A DNA stretch of 64,000 nucleotides from Massilia eurypsychrophila (GTDB lineage: Bacteria; Pseudomonadota; Gammaproteobacteria; Burkholderiales; Burkholderiaceae_D), in assembly GCF_002760655.1 (NCBI RefSeq), contig NZ_PDOC01000004.1:1-64000 (forward strand), given 5' to 3'. The translations under genes and the position numbers were made by a program. The stretch's first letter is position 1. Every line of letters begins with the position of its first letter. The notes below the pieces were generated by a model. That model ran no database searches. It was not told the origin of the DNA and worked only from the letters and a program-made list of their open reading frames with translations. Of the stretch, positions 1,779 through 38,145 are shown one piece after another.

Positions 1779-3779
1779 TCAGGACGCTTCCTTGAGCTGC
1801 TCCAGAATCGCCGGATTCTCTAACGTCGAGATGTCCTGCGTGATCGTCTCGCCTTTGGCCAGCACGCGCAATAACCGCCGCATGATCTTGCCCGATCGCG
1901 TCTTCGGCAAATTGTCGCCAAAACGGATTTCCTTCGGCTTGGCGATCGGCCCAATCTCCTTCGCGACCCAGTTGCGTAGCTCCTGGGCAATGCGCTTGGC
2001 TTCTTCGCCAGTCGGCCGCGCTTGCTTGAGCACGACGAACGCGCAGATCGATTCGCCCGTCGTGTCGTCCGGCTTGCCCACTACCGCCGCTTCGGCCACG
2101 ATCGGATTGGCCACCAGCGCCGATTCGATTTCCATCGTGCCCATCCGGTGGCCCGACACGTTCAGCACGTCGTCGATGCGCCCCGTAATCGTGAAGTAGC
2201 TGGTGTCGCTGTTGCGAATCGCGCCGTCACCAGCCAGATAATATTTGCCGCCCAGCTCGTCCGGGAAGTAGCTCGTCTTGAACCGCTCCGGATTGTTCCA
2301 GATCGTGCGGATCATCGACGGCCATGGCCGCTTCACCACCAGGATGCCGCCTTGTCCGTTCGCCACGTCGGCGCCCGCCTCGTCGACAATCGCCGTCATG
2401 ATGCCCGGCAGCGGCAGCGTGCACGAGCCCGGCACCATCGGCGTCGCCCCAGGCATCGGCGAAATCATGTGGCCACCCGTCTCAGTCTGCCAGAACGTGT
2501 CGACAATCGGGCAGCGCTCGCCGCCAACGTTCTTGTAGTACCACATCCACGCTTCCGGATTGATCGGCTCGCCGACCGATCCGAGCAGCCGCAGGCTCGA
2601 CAAGTCGTAGTTTTTCGGATGTACTTTCGGGTCGACATCGGCCGCCTTGATCAGCGAGCGGATCGCCGTCGGCGCCGTGTAGAAAATGCTGACCTTGTGC
2701 TTGGCGATCGTCTCCCAGAACCGGCCCGCGTTCGGGTAGGTCGGAACGCCCTCGAACACGACTTCGGTCGCGCCCACCGCCAGCGGACCGTAGGCGATGT
2801 AGCTGTGCCCGGTCACCCAGCCGATGTCGGCGGTGCACCAGAAGACGTCGGCCGGCTTGATGTCGAACGTCCACTTCATCGTCAGCGCGGCCCACAGCAA
2901 AAAGCCGCCGGTCGAATGCTGCACCCCTTTCGGCGTGCCGGTCGAGCCGGATGTGTAGAGAATGAACAGCGGATGCTCGGCGCTGACCCACTCCGGCTCG
3001 CAATCGGCAGCCTGCGCGTCGACCAGGTCGCCAAGCCAGATGTCGCGCCCTTCGGTCCACGCGATGTTGCCGCCGGTGCGCTTGTAGACGATGACGTCGC
3101 GGATCGTGTCGCAGCCGCCCAGCGCCAGCGCCTCGTCGACGATCGCTTTCAGCGGCAGGTGCTTGCCGCCGCGCAGCTGCTCGTCGGCGGTGATCACCGC
3201 CACCGCGCCGGCGTCGATGATGCGCTCCTGCAGCGACTTGGCGGAAAAGCCGCCGAACACCACCGAGTGGGTCGCACCGATGCGCGCGCACGCCTGCATC
3301 GCCGCCACGCCTTCGATCGACATCGACATGTAGATGATGACGCGGTCGCCCTTCTTGATGCCGCGCGACTTCAGACCGTTGGCAAACTTGCAGACGCGCT
3401 CGTGCAATTCCTGGTAAGTCGCGCGCGTGACGGTGCCGTCGTCGGCCTCGAACACGAGCGCCGTCTTGCCGCCGTTGCCAGCCTTGATGTGGCGGTCCAG
3501 GCAGTTGTAGGAGGCGTTCAGCTCGCCGTCCTCGAACCACTTATAGAACGGCGCCTGCGATTCGTCGAGCACCTGCGCAAACGGCTTGTGCCAGTCCAGT
3601 TCCTCACGCGCCAGGCGCGCCCAGAAACCTTCATAATCGGCCTCCGCTTCGGCGCACAGCTTTTCGTACGCTGGCATGCCGGAGATGGCGGCGTTTGCGA
3701 CGAAATCCGGCGGCGGCTGGAAAATACGACTTTCCTGCGCGCCCTGGTTTTCTTGCTGGTTGATGTCTGTTCCGGCCAT
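1779..3779 (-). CDS. acs: Acetyl-CoA synthetase (acetate-CoA ligase, AMP-forming)
   Basis: Activates acetate to acetyl-CoA through acetyl-AMP in the cytoplasm, which lets the cell grow on or scavenge acetate. The 666-residue length is close to that of other Acs proteins. Visible motifs are the P-loop [11 protein letters not shown] (about 275-285), [10 protein letters not shown] in the adenylation core, and the C-terminal SGKIMRR. The lysine of that last motif (about K631) is the adenylation lysine, which is controlled by acetylation in known Acs enzymes. The start ATG at 3779 gives the usual N-terminus. Monocistronic; diverges from yqhA across about 200 bp that must hold both promoters. Confidence 0.97.
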
Positions 3780-32172: not shown

Positions 32173-34677
32173 ATGAGCAAGAAAAGAACGACACTCGGCA
32201 TGGGTTGCGCGATCGGCGCACTGTGCGCGCTGACAGCGCCCACGTTCGCCCAGGTAACATCGCAAGAGACGCCCCTTGCAGGCCAACCTGCCGACGCAGC
32301 CGATTCCCAGGTCGTGGTGGTCACCGGCTCGGCTCGTCCGCAACGGCGCTTCGACGTTTCCTATGCGGTGAACGCGCTGTCGCAAACGGACGTGCAAAAG
32401 CTTGCCCCCCAAAACATGGCGGACCTGCTGGGCAAATTGCCGGGTATCCAGGTCGAAGCGACCGGCGGCGAAGTGCAGAACGTGACGCGAGTGCGCGGCA
32501 TTCCCACCGACGACGGCTACGCCTTGTTCCAGCAAGATGGCCTGCCACTGATGACGGAGATCAACGGCTATTTCTTCCGGGGCGACAGCATGAACCGCTA
32601 CGACCTGATGACGAAGACGCTTGAAGTGGTGCGCGGCGGTCCCGCCCCGATCTACGCAAGCCAGGCCGCCGCCATCGTCAACAGCACGACGGTCGCTGGT
32701 ACAAACAAAACCCGTGGCAAGGCCCAGGTGAGCATCGGCACCACGGGGCTCAAGCGCCTCGATGCCTACCAGGCCGGCCCGATCGACGATCGCACCTTTT
32801 ATGCCATTGGCGGCTTCATTCGCCAGGATGACGGCCATCGCGACAACGGCTTTCCCAACGATCGCGGCGGGCAGATCCGGGCGAACATCAAGCACGTCAC
32901 TGACGCGGGCACATGGAAGCTGAGCGCCAATCTCCTCAACGACCATAACGTCTTCTATCTGCCGATCCCTGTGGCCGATCCACGCAATCCCGCCGTTTCC
33001 CTCGATCCGTACATCGATTATTTCAAGGGTACGATGAACTCGCCATCGCTGCGCAACGTCCGCCAGAAAAGCCTCGATGGCGCCGGCGTGCTGCAGACCG
33101 ACCAGCGCGACCTGGCCAATGGCCGCCATCTCAAGTTCGGCAATATCGGCCTGCAATACGAGGGCAATATGGGCGAGTGGCAGGTATCTGCCAAGGCCGG
33201 TCTCACCAAGGGCAAGCTCGACTTCGACGCCTTCTATTCGACGTCGAACCCGGCCGACCCGACGACCTTCGCAAACGGCTTCCTTGCCGCCTCCAGAGCC
33301 GCATTCGGCCCGGTCGAGCGCCTCGGCTATGCACTGTCGGGCACCAATGGCGCCCAGGCCTACAATCCCGCGTCCGCCTCCGGCCTCATCATGCAGGGAC
33401 AGTTCCGGACCCTCACGTCGAAATTCTATTCGAACCAGGCGGACGTCAACTTCACGCGCAACTTCCAGACTGGCTTTGGCAACCACGACGTGAAAGCAGG
33501 CTTTTACGCCAGCACGTATGGCGCCACGAGCAGGTCGTTGTATAACGACATGCTGATCGAGGTTAACGGCCAGCCGCGCACGCTCGACCTCATCGCCTAT
33601 TCGGCAACTGGCGCCGTGCTCGGTTCCGTCACCGACAAAGGCGTGCTGCGCTACACGACGACGCTCAATGAAGGCGACGTCGACGCCAGGATGGGCGCGC
33701 TGTACCTGAACGACACCTGGGAAGTCTCCGACCGCCTGCGCGTCGATGCGGGCCTGCGCACCGAGCGATATCATTACGACGGCTACGCCTTGCTGACGAA
33801 CCAGGTGAACCTGGGCGACCCGGCGACGTTGGCCGATAATACGACGCGTGCCTTCACTGGCGAGCGCCAGGCGCACGTCATCAAGCCGAAAACCACCAAC
33901 TGGACGGTGGGCGCGAACTACGATTTTTCCACCACGATCGGCGGCTACGTCCGCGTCTCCCACCTCGAAGTGCCGCCGACGATGCAGGTGGCGTCGTCGG
34001 TCTCGCCGCTCGTGCTGACGACGAAGGCCGACCAGTACGAAGTTGGCTTGAAGACGACGTTCGGCCGCTCCTACCTGTACATCACCGGCTTCTATGCGCA
34101 GTTCGATCCGTTGAACACTTCCTTCGTTGCGTTCAACCCGATTACCGGTCGCAATGACCAGACCGTGCCGTTCTTCGGCAAGGCCGTTATTCGCGGCGCC
34201 GAGATCGATGGCGCCTGGCACCTGACGAAACGCTTCGTCGTCAGCGCATCGCTGACGCTACAAGATCCCCAGTACCGGAACTTCGTGAGCGCGACGGGCG
34301 CCGATCCGTCGAAAGTGGTTGGCAACCAGATCGTGCGCGAACCGAAAGTGTTCGGCAATGTCCGTCCGAGCTACAGCTTTAACGTGGGCGACGACCTGGT
34401 CGACGTGTTCGGCAGCTATTCCCACACCGGCAAGCGCTACGTCGATTTGTTCAATACTACCGCCCTGCCTTCGTATCACTCCATCGGCGCAGGCGTCACG
34501 GTGACCCGTGGCGACTGGCAGCTTCAGCTCACGGGCGACAACCTGACGAACGCGAAAGGCCTCACCGAGGGCAACCCACGTACCGACACGCTATCGGGCC
34601 AGGGCAACAACGCGGCAATCTATGGCCGTCCAGTATTCGGGCGCAGCGCACGCCTGGTCGTGAGCAGGGCATGGTAA
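32173..34677 (+). CDS. TonB-dependent outer-membrane receptor
   Basis: 834 residues. A signal peptide ends near PTFAQ. The plug domain starts near VVVVTGSARPQRRF (the TonB-box region) and includes QNMADLLGKLPGIQVE, RVRGIPTDD and LEVVRGGPAPIYAS. A beta-barrel follows and ends with aromatic-terminated strands (VFGRSARLVVSRAW), as required for outer-membrane insertion. The ligand is unknown; the plug resembles ferric siderophore receptors. The ATG at 32173 follows AGGAG. The downstream YdcF-like gene is almost contiguous. Confidence 0.92.
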   Translation: MSKKRTTLGMGCAIGALCALTAPTFAQVTSQETPLAGQPADAADSQVVVVTGSARPQRRFDVSYAVNALSQTDVQKLAPQNMADLLGKLPGIQVEATGGEVQNVTRVRGIPTDDGYALFQQDGLPLMTEINGYFFRGDSMNRYDLMTKTLEVVRGGPAPIYASQAAAIVNSTTVAGTNKTRGKAQVSIGTTGLKRLDAYQAGPIDDRTFYAIGGFIRQDDGHRDNGFPNDRGGQIRANIKHVTDAGTWKLSANLLNDHNVFYLPIPVADPRNPAVSLDPYIDYFKGTMNSPSLRNVRQKSLDGAGVLQTDQRDLANGRHLKFGNIGLQYEGNMGEWQVSAKAGLTKGKLDFDAFYSTSNPADPTTFANGFLAASRAAFGPVERLGYALSGTNGAQAYNPASASGLIMQGQFRTLTSKFYSNQADVNFTRNFQTGFGNHDVKAGFYASTYGATSRSLYNDMLIEVNGQPRTLDLIAYSATGAVLGSVTDKGVLRYTTTLNEGDVDARMGALYLNDTWEVSDRLRVDAGLRTERYHYDGYALLTNQVNLGDPATLADNTTRAFTGERQAHVIKPKTTNWTVGANYDFSTTIGGYVRVSHLEVPPTMQVASSVSPLVLTTKADQYEVGLKTTFGRSYLYITGFYAQFDPLNTSFVAFNPITGRNDQTVPFFGKAVIRGAEIDGAWHLTKRFVVSASLTLQDPQYRNFVSATGADPSKVVGNQIVREPKVFGNVRPSYSFNVGDDLVDVFGSYSHTGKRYVDLFNTTALPSYHSIGAGVTVTRGDWQLQLTGDNLTNAKGLTEGNPRTDTLSGQGNNAAIYGRPVFGRSARLVVSRAW

Positions 34678-34703
34678 CGAATCTTAAAACCCACACTTCA
34701 ACC

Positions 34704-35855
34704 ATGAGAAAACATTTCATACTCGCCGTGGCGCTGGCCATCGCACTTCCTTCCCATGCTGCCCCGGTTCAGGACCAGCATTGGGCGTTGATGGCGGCGC
34801 GCATGTTCCCGGCGGTGGCCAGCCTACAAGCCGGCCGCCAGCCGGAGCGCCTCGCCGCTGTGCTCGATAGCAGGAAAAAGCGTATCGATGCATGCCAGCA
34901 GGCGTCCAAATGCCTGTTCTTGGCTGCCACCTGGACCGATGAAGAAATGGATGCGGTGGCGAACGCCGTGGCCGCCGTCCCGGCATCGCCCGGGAAGCGC
35001 TCGCCAATCGCCGATGACGGGGTCAAGGCCCAGGTCGCGCGCGAACTGCGGGGCCTGAACGCCGTCCTGCAAATCTATGGTTTCGGTAACGAAGCGCGTT
35101 ACCCGATGATTGACGGCCCGTTCGAAAAGCCCGGCAGCGAGGCTTTCAAAGCGTTGGTGGCGGACGCCATCTGGCTGGCCGATGCCGGAAAAAACGATCC
35201 GGGAATAAGCCTCGATCCCAGCATTTCGCTGGCAATCGCGCTCATCGACGCCAACGAACGGCCTGACGCAGTGCTGTTCGAGCCGCTCGACAAGGGTCTT
35301 AACGCGGCGCCGTATGCGCGGGCGCGCAGCATCGACTGGAAGCGCTACCGCTACACGGCAATCATCGTTCCAGGCGTCGGACCGGAGAATCCGGCGATTG
35401 CGATGAGTGCACGAGGCAAGCTGCACCTGAAGCTGGCGGCAAGCCGCTTCGCCGACGGCACCGCGGCGTTCATCATCGTCAGCGGCGCCGCTGTGCATCC
35501 GAAAGAATCGCGTTTCGTCGAGGCCGTCGAAATGCGCAAGGTGCTCATCGAGCGCTTCCACGTTCCGGCGGACCGCATCGTCATCGAGCCGTACGCCCGC
35601 CATACGACGACGAACCTGCGCAACGTGACGCGCCAGCTCGTTGCCATGGGAGCGCCGATCGAGCAGCCGACGCTGATCGTTGCCAACGTCAGCCAGAGCC
35701 GTTACATCGAAAGCCCGGAGTTCGCCGCCCGCAACCCGGCCGAGCTCGGTTACCAGCCCGGTACCGTCGGTCCCCGCATATCGCCTTACGAGTTGGAGTT
35801 CCGGCCGTCGCTGCGTTCGCTGCGCGTCGACCCATGGGATCCGCTCGATCCCTAG
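34704..35855 (+). CDS. Secreted YdcF/DUF218-family protein
   Basis: 383 residues from ATG 34704, with signal peptide MRKHFILAVALAIALPSHA. The DUF218/YdcF core begins at about residue 215 with TAIIVPGVGP, then AAFIIVSGAAVHP, ESRFVEAVEMRKVL, IVIEPYARHTTTNLRNV and IVANVSQSRYI; the residues before it have no recognised domain. YdcF-type proteins are poorly understood; some bind nucleotides or act in envelope sugar chemistry. An ATG at 34671 overlaps the receptor stop and would give an 11-residue longer protein that hides the signal peptide. The near-overlap suggests that the two genes are a functional pair. Confidence 0.82.
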   Translation: MRKHFILAVALAIALPSHAAPVQDQHWALMAARMFPAVASLQAGRQPERLAAVLDSRKKRIDACQQASKCLFLAATWTDEEMDAVANAVAAVPASPGKRSPIADDGVKAQVARELRGLNAVLQIYGFGNEARYPMIDGPFEKPGSEAFKALVADAIWLADAGKNDPGISLDPSISLAIALIDANERPDAVLFEPLDKGLNAAPYARARSIDWKRYRYTAIIVPGVGPENPAIAMSARGKLHLKLAASRFADGTAAFIIVSGAAVHPKESRFVEAVEMRKVLIERFHVPADRIVIEPYARHTTTNLRNVTRQLVAMGAPIEQPTLIVANVSQSRYIESPEFAARNPAELGYQPGTVGPRISPYELEFRPSLRSLRVDPWDPLDP

Positions 35856-35884
35856 TCCGCTATCACCGGCCGGTTGCATCGCTT

Positions 35885-36198
35885 CCGGCCGAATCGGCAT
35901 AGGGGAACGGCCCAGATGGGCCGAAGCGGGGCGTCCCCAGGTAAGGGCCGCACTCCTTCATCACACAACCGCTGCATCTACGCCATCTCTCCTTGACCAC
36001 AAGAGCTTCGCGGATATCTGCCCGCTCACCCTGATCGACAGCGCCTTCTATGCAGTTCTTGTCCATCGGCTCATGATTTATGCTCCACGCTTCCTTCCCA
36101 CGGTCGGTTACCCTTCCGCAGTTGCGCTTCACTTCGCTCACTGTGGTCAGCTCGCGGCGGGACTTGCACCCACAGGAGTGCGCCCATGCTGGGCGCAC
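35885..36198 (-). mobile_element. 5' remnant of a group II intron (class C type)
   Basis: On the minus strand the sequence begins GTGCGCCCAGCATGGGCGCA at 36198 and continues with TGTGGGTGCAAGTCCCGC. Further on are GGAAGGGTAACCGACCGTGG, TGGACAAGAACTGCATAGAA, GAAGCTCTTGTGGTCAAGG and CTTACCTGGGGACGCC. I recognise these as group II intron domain I-type sequence. It starts right after an intrinsic terminator, the usual target of class C introns. There is no reverse-transcriptase gene and no domain V seen before the YdcF-like stop, so it is a truncated copy. Confidence 0.65.
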
Positions 36199-36202
36199 AG
36201 AT

Positions 36203-36233
36203 AAAAAAATAGCCCACTTTGCGTGGGCTATTT
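36203..36233 (-). terminator. Second intrinsic terminator downstream of typA
   Basis: On the minus strand, an AAATAGCCCAC/GTGGGCTATTT stem of 11 bp with a 5-base loop is followed by seven T. The group II intron remnant begins 5 bases after the T-run. Confidence 0.85.
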
Positions 36234-36284
36234 TTATGTGCACCCAGCATCGACACACTCCCGTGCGGCAAAGCTGGGCACATG

Positions 36285-36307
36285 AAAAAGGGCGCCGAAG
36301 CGCCCTT
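36285..36307 (-). terminator. Intrinsic terminator of typA
   Basis: AAGGGCGC/GCGCCCTT with a TTCG loop and five T, starting 6 bases after the typA stop codon. Confidence 0.9.
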
Positions 36308-36312
36308 GTTAA

Positions 36313-38145
36313 TTACGCGTCGCGACCGGCGCGTTTGCGCTCGTTCTCTTTCAAGTAACGCTTGCGCAGGCGGATCGACTTCGGCGTGATTTCGACCAGC
36401 TCGTCGTCGGCGATGAATTCGACCGCGTACTCGAGCGACATCTGCACTGGCGGCACCAGGCGCACCGCTTCGTCGGTACCGGACGAACGCACGTTGGTCA
36501 GCTGCTTGCCCTTGATCGGGTTGACGACCAGGTCATTGTCGCGCGAGTGGATGCCGATGATCATGCCTTCGTAGACCGGATCGTTGTGGACCACGAACAT
36601 GCGGCCGCGCTCCTGCAGTTTCCAGATCGCGTAGGCAACGGCGGCGCCGTCGTCTTGCGAAATCAGCACGCCGTTACGGCGGCCGGCCATTTCACCGCGG
36701 GTGTTGTCGACCGGTGCGTACTCGTCGAACACGTGGCTCATCAAGCCGGTACCGCGCGTCAGGGTCATGAATTCGCCCTGGAAGCCGATCAGGCCGCGCG
36801 CAGGAATCTTGTACTCGAGGCGAACGCGGCCCTTGCTGTCCGATTCCATGTTCTGCAGGTCGCCGCGGCGACGGCCCAGTTCTTCCATCACGCCGCCCTG
36901 GTTGGCTTCTTCGACGTCCACCGACAGTTGCTCGAACGGCTCGTGGCGCACGCCATCGACCATCTTGAAGACCACGCGCGGACGCGATACGGCCAGCTCG
37001 AAGCCTTCGCGGCGCATCGTTTCGATCAGGATCGTCAGGTGCAGCTCGCCGCGGCCGGACACTTCGAAAATGGTGTCGTCGTCGGTCGGCGCAACGCGCA
37101 GAGCAACGTTGGCTTTCAGTTCGCGGTCGAGGCGGTCGCGCAGCTGGCGGCTGGTGACGAACTTGCCTTCGCGGCCGGCCAGTGGCGAGTTGTTGACCAT
37201 GAAGTTCATCGTCAGGGTTGGCTCGTCGACGGTCAGCATCGGCAGCGCTTCCGGGGTGTCCGGCTGGCAGATGGTCGAACCGATGCCGATTTCGTCGATA
37301 CCGTTGATCAGCACGATGTCGCCGGCGACAGCTTCGTCGACCAGCACGCGCTCGAGGCCCTTGAAGTTCAGCACCTGGTTGATGCGGCCCTTGAACGGGG
37401 TCGAATCAGGACCGTTCATGACGATGACGTCCTGGCCGGACTTGATGCGACCGCGCGAGATGCGGCCAATGCCGATCTTGCCGACGTACGACGAGTAGTC
37501 GAGCGACGTGATTTGCATCTGCAGCGGACCGTCCGGATTGTCGTCGCGCACTGGCACGTGCTTGAGGATCGCTTCGAACAGCGGCGTCATGTCGCCTTCG
37601 CGCACTTCCGAGTCGAGGCTGGCATAGCCGTTCAGTGCCGAGGCGAACACGACCGGGAAGTCGAGCTGCTCGTCGGTGGCGCCGAGCTTGTCGAACAGTT
37701 CGAACGTGGCGTTGATCGCCCAGTCAGGACGGGCGCCCGGACGGTCGATCTTGTTGATGACGACGATCGGCTTCAGGCCCAGCGCCAGCGCCTTGCGCGT
37801 GACGAAACGGGTCTGTGGCATCGGGCCTTCCTGGGCATCGACCAGCAGCAGCACCGAGTCAACCATCGACAGCACGCGCTCGACTTCGCCGCCGAAGTCG
37901 GCGTGGCCTGGGGTGTCGACGATATTGATGTGGGTACCTTCGTACTCAACAGCGCAGTTCTTCGACAGAATGGTGATGCCGCGTTCTTTTTCGAGGTCGT
38001 TCGAGTCCATCACGCGGGTCTCGACCTGCTGGTTGTCACGGAAAGTACCGGATTGGCGCAGCAGCTTGTCCACCAGCGTGGTTTTGCCGTGGTCAACGTG
38101 GGCGATAATGGCGATGTTACGAATTGCGCGTTTTTGAGTAGACAT
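36313..38145 (-). CDS. typA: Translational GTPase TypA/BipA
   Basis: Ribosome-associated GTPase of 610 residues that helps large-subunit assembly and growth in cold or stress. G1 is AHVDHGKTT (15-23), with [12 protein letters not shown] as switch II and [10 protein letters not shown] as G4. The EF-G-like domains III and V and the family-specific C-terminal domain follow. Full length. ATG 38145; the 5' leader contains repeated CGTACACC-type words. It has its own terminator pair, so it is a single-gene unit. Confidence 0.97.

Follow-up and report, generated by a model that had tools for sequence, protein, structure and literature searches.

An internally deleted group IIC intron remnant behind an intrinsic terminator in the typA–DUF218 interval of Massilia eurypsychrophila

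Between typA and a convergent gene for a DUF218-domain protein, the Massilia eurypsychrophila genome carries a 306-nt remnant of a group IIC intron that has kept both termini and lost its interior (Table 1). It was found in a 64,000-nt stretch of DNA, hereafter the window (contig NZ_PDOC01000004.1, positions 1 to 64,000). The observation is real and far from chance. We put the probability at about 0.93 that a mobile group IIC intron inserted at a terminator here, was then (or thereby) internally deleted, and is now dead, the remnant being an ordinary relic of a multi-copy family.

Table 1. Features at the typA–DUF218 locus (window coordinates; nt, intron nucleotides; copies named after their contigs)
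Feature	Position	Strand	Basis
DUF218-domain protein gene, convergent with typA	34671..35855	+	PF02698, 37.4 bits (cut-off 27.6)
Internally deleted group IIC intron remnant, both termini kept	35893..36198	-	306 nt; RF02001, sister-copy boundaries, alignment
Last 31 intron nt: D6 loop, 3' strand, 3' end (GCCGAT)	35893..35923	-	alignment to D6 of the C3 copy
Deletion junction, TT, assigned to neither side	35924..35925	-	5'-part alignments stop at nt 273; C3 alignment starts at nt 276
Intron nt 1-273: domain I and start of domain II	35926..36198	-	alignment to C24 and C5 copies; RF02001 inside
Intrinsic terminator, insertion target	36205..36235		scan (minus strand only), sequence, fold -19.0 kcal/mol, z -8.1
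Probable second, decayed IIC intron 5'-end remnant, opposite orientation	36238..36271	+	match to intron nt 1-35
Intrinsic terminator of typA itself	36288..36307	-	terminator scan, fold
typA (bipA), translational GTPase gene	36313..38145	-	TIGR01394, 951.5 bits

The intron starts at position 36198 of the minus strand with GTGCGCCCAGCATGGGCGCACTCC. An earlier sequence-only reading had already recognized this start (GTGCGCCCAGCATGGGC) but had placed it 5 bases after a terminator T-run; it is separated from the T7 run by 4 bases (ATCT). The blocks of domain I that this reading had noticed were confirmed by the Rfam search it had proposed, in which RF02001 (group-II-D1D4-3) matched 35947-36117 on the minus strand over the full model (1-170 of 170) with 102.8 bits and an E value of 7e-20, the gathering score being 32. 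The boundaries are set by copies in the same genome, 12 for the 5' end (the window's included) and 10 for the 3' end. The 5' end, GTGCGCCC, is common to the sister copies, whose upstream flanks differ except for the terminator pattern. The 3' end, TATGCCGAT, is common to all 10 D5-bearing 3' ends in the genome; the flanks past it diverge, all 10 starting with C or T and 4 of the 10 with CTG. In the window this motif stops at intron nt 306, which by the 3' ends of the sister copies moves the boundary to 35893 from the 35885 given earlier.

The window copy thus has the precise ends shared with sister copies, the domain I of the class, and the position behind an intrinsic terminator (or attC site) by which a group IIC intron is recognized. 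What it lacks is the catalytic domain V, and it is therefore filed as a remnant rather than as a complete intron. The D5 core of the sister copies is absent, at up to 2 mismatches, from contig C4, to which the window belongs. Since the Rfam D5 models gave no match even on D5-bearing copies, the absence of D5 is judged by alignment and this motif search. No match to a reverse transcriptase (RT) was obtained in the window at an E value of 1e-3. The sequence-only reading had reported both absences correctly. From the established biochemistry of group II introns, a remnant without D5 and RT should be capable of neither splicing nor mobility.

That reading had also concluded that the 3' part was lost. 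As judged from the alignments, the remnant is instead an internal deletion; a plain 3' truncation is ruled out by the presence of the last 31 nt. Nucleotides 1-273 align to the C24 copy with 249 identities and 24 mismatches and to the C26 copy with 250 identities, 22 mismatches, and 2 gap positions, and their first 126 nt, beyond which the contig of the C5 copy ends, show no difference from that copy (126/126). For window nt 276-306, the counterpart is the 3' end of the C3 copy (30 identities, one gap). Comparison with the copies on C24, a Cupriavidus plasmid, and Polaromonas plasmid 2 shows what is missing: the remainder of D2, D3, D4 including the RT gene, D5, and, of D6, the 5' strand (domain names after the known IIC architecture). 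When the 273-nt piece is folded, 5' CCCAG pairs with CUGGG near the 3' end, as expected if domain I is closed; the 306-nt piece, however, has a local 5' hairpin in place of this closure in its minimum-energy fold, which counts against our reading. Searched for at up to 3 mismatches in 392 family genomes, the deletion junction turned up in the window's own genome only, which speaks against a deletion shared with other genomes.

Two terminators lie behind typA on the minus strand, and the intron sits behind the second one, between it and the DUF218 gene. The target is therefore not the terminator of typA, as had been supposed, but a 13-bp stem with a T7 run located 52 nt beyond it. This stem also ends in T5 on the plus strand, and because it ends in T-runs on either strand we read it as bidirectional; the scan calls it minus-only, having counted the plus-strand T5 as part of the stem. 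A terminator-like stem and T-run precede all 12 of the intron 5' ends in the genome, versus 82 of 2000 random window positions, under a rule (a stem of 5 or more pairs, 3 or more of them G-C, ending no more than 20 nt away and followed by a T-rich tail) that was drawn up only once the sites had been seen. The proposal of a group IIC insertion behind a terminator is thus upheld, and the placement of the 12 copies agrees with the published target choice of IIC introns, for which the excerpts consulted of three papers describe insertion at intrinsic terminators (PMC4424553, PMC3522654, PMC7923331).

From the sequence, the empty site is predicted to be a terminator ending in TATTTTTTTATCT followed directly by TCGGCCGGAAGCG. 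Also counting against our reading, neither an empty nor a full orthologous site was found among the typA loci of 26 relatives and 14 DUF218 loci. The intron 5' motif was absent from the 26 typA loci at up to 6 mismatches; one relative's locus has it with 7/24 mismatches, which we take as chance. Read by eye, the sequence downstream of typA differs from that of the window in 25 of the 26 loci, with nothing similar seen (420 nt for the first 11 loci and 160 nt for the rest; one locus gave none), and tblastn found no typA near the DUF218 relatives in the 14 loci. The DUF218 locus closest to the window's comes from a Massilia metagenome-assembled genome (91% identity), a match by which an Oxalobacteraceae host is likely. 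The DUF218 loci include Massilia, Duganella, Janthinobacterium, Luteimonas, Pseudoxanthomonas, Sphingobium, and Sphingomonas, and in 12 of the 14 the end of a TonB-receptor gene was also matched just upstream at the DNA level (compare window positions 32173-35855).

The far side of the same terminator carries a probable second remnant of an IIC intron 5' end, as judged from its match to the intron start. Some 34 nt long and lying directly behind the plus-strand side of the stem, it aligns to intron nt 1-35 with 28 of 34 identities and one gap, a result equaled by none of 5000 dinucleotide shuffles. Without gaps the match is 20/24, a level that 5 of 1000 shuffled motifs attained on one or other strand of the window, so that the position behind a T-run forms part of the argument. 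At up to 3 mismatches, this sequence occurs only once in the genome, and its reverse strand is likewise similar to the intron start, with a lower score (20 versus 33). Since the similarity of this second remnant to the intron is lower than that of the main remnant to its sisters, we would, post hoc, read it as the trace of an older, separate insertion. The remaining sub-threshold Rfam matches, led by mir-5014, lie mostly on the terminator palindrome and were set aside.

The exact 5' 20-mer occurs 12 times in the genome, that is, in the window and 11 other places, and the D5 core GGTGCGGACCCGCATGC occurs 10 times with zero mismatches; two further matches with 2 mismatches were excluded from this count, and the reversed D5 pattern, used as a control, gave 4 matches at up to 2 mismatches. 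RF02001 also matches C24 and C26. Contig edges cut 10 of the 12 5' ends and 9 of the 10 D5 ends, and since most intron ends fall at such edges, the intron repeats appear to have broken the assembly. The proposed search for a full copy in the same genome gave the 11 related 5' ends, but no complete intron with a complete RT was seen on one contig, a further point against our reading. RT pieces on C3, C7, and C24 share 69-78% identity with the RT of a Polaromonas group II intron (340 aa at 76 and 78% for C3 and C7, respectively), which itself scores 406 bits against TIGR04416 (group II intron RT/maturase).

In the C24 copy, the RT is an open 296-aa frame (locus 2419-3309) with an in-frame internal deletion, matching only residues 1-260 and 424-461 of the Polaromonas RT; the missing part would presumably hold the YADD motif. 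This copy starts at locus 2014, 2 bases from a match to RF02278 (Betaproteobacteria_toxic_sRNA, 1949-2011, 61.4 bits), and is thus inserted at the terminator of that RNA. Seven 5' ends, on C9, C11, C15, C20, C22, C38, and C59, form a second subfamily. Each is a piece of 206 nt at a contig edge that shares 181-182 identities with the window copy, and the first 60 nt do not differ among the seven; a recent burst is suggested.

Among 195 family genomes, that of the window included, 48 matched a 455-nt DNA query, some via the terminator sequence only; among the matches listed (3 scored per genome), none except the window runs more than 2 bases past the junction. Matches were also obtained in 220 plasmid records (20 of them listed), none of which covers 80% of the query. 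IIC introns without an RT gene that keep D5 were found on a Cupriavidus plasmid (3009-3656, about 648 nt by inspection) and in the family genome G116 (locus 1510-2159, 650 nt); the C24 copy, which is internally shortened, likewise keeps D5 (1383 nt). The Cupriavidus and G116 introns resemble the window copy in their 5'-end family and in the deletion of the RT gene, but keep D5 and D6 and might be mobilized in trans; it is possible that they are themselves trans-mobilized copies. On Polaromonas plasmid 2, IIC introns stand in tandem, one starting (at 3002) right behind the 3' end of the other; the second, full-type intron measures 1883 nt.

The window copy shares its RNA class, its ends, and its insertion behind a terminator stem with T-run with bacterial class C (group IIC) introns, related RT pieces being present elsewhere in the genome. 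It differs from active members in lacking D3, D4 together with its RT gene, and D5, as well as most of D2 and half of D6. TeI3n of T. elongatus belongs to a different intron class. Like the window copy, it has a large internal deletion and is one copy of a multi-copy family, but according to the parts consulted of its description the deletion lies between DId and DIVa1, so that other domains are lost (PMC2882425).

The class, site, boundaries, and sister copies point to a group IIC intron that would have retrohomed into the minus-strand side of the terminator between typA and the DUF218 gene, its RNA probably having been made elsewhere in the same genome. The insertion was probably recent, as the 126 nt shared without change with the C5 copy suggest. 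The middle of the intron would then have been lost after insertion. A less likely variant is that the intron was inserted in its present form because the RT jumped during cDNA synthesis: it would have copied the last 31 nt, switched template to the start of D2 with 2 extra bases, and finished the 5' end. This route, which we consider rather unlikely, would account for intact termini around a missing interior and for the 2-nt TT at the junction; the identity of the first 126 nt to a sister copy speaks for a recent event, and group II intron RTs are known to switch template, at least by the excerpts consulted of PMC5566474. The same product would, however, also arise if the inserted DNA underwent an ordinary deletion, the TT can be read as a 5'-side CTT that has lost one C, and a second copy with the same junction is absent from the 392 family genomes. 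If the copy was born deleted, IIC retrohoming would be able to leave non-autonomous "stubs" with both ends intact. Taken together with two hits on the same terminator, one from each side, we hold this proposition to be a shade more doubtful still.

Collapse of an intact repeat during assembly could also have joined the two intron ends, and the frequency with which this family ends at contig edges makes such an artefact conceivable. We regard it as very improbable: the contig, 469,229 bases long, continues across the locus, a collapse would not be expected to connect the beginning of D2 to the D6 apical stem and put two bases between them, and the D6 scrap has a T that the C3 copy lacks. Least probable of all, to the point of being hardly credible, is the idea that D1 and the adjoining palindrome make up a functional small RNA or a structured extension of the terminator. 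The remnants and terminator do form a 95-nt imperfect palindrome (36171-36265) that folds at -54.5 kcal/mol with a z-score of -9.8, but the terminator alone reaches -8.1, and the remaining symmetry is explained by the two flanking intron 5' ends. Moreover, the 343 nt from 36198 to 35856 on the minus strand have a z-score of only -1.5 (6 of 100 shuffles were as good), the scan found no promoter-like site in 35800-36400, and nothing similar stands behind typA in the relatives compared. Fold and promoter scan thus leave a functional small RNA unsupported.

By our preferred reading, that of an inserted and then internally deleted intron, the remnant would now be an inert spacer, transcribed in antisense as part of the DUF218 3' UTR ahead of the terminator. 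It brings no new mechanism, and among bacterial group II introns most copies have been truncated or inactivated according to the excerpts consulted of PMC4424553. For annotation, the typA–DUF218 stretch can be entered as an intron relic, no gene or small RNA being in evidence. The remnant adds one degenerated copy to a genome in which 12 IIC 5' ends were detected, each of them behind a terminator-like site, and together with the sequence across the stem it suggests that one terminator may collect intron insertions on both sides.
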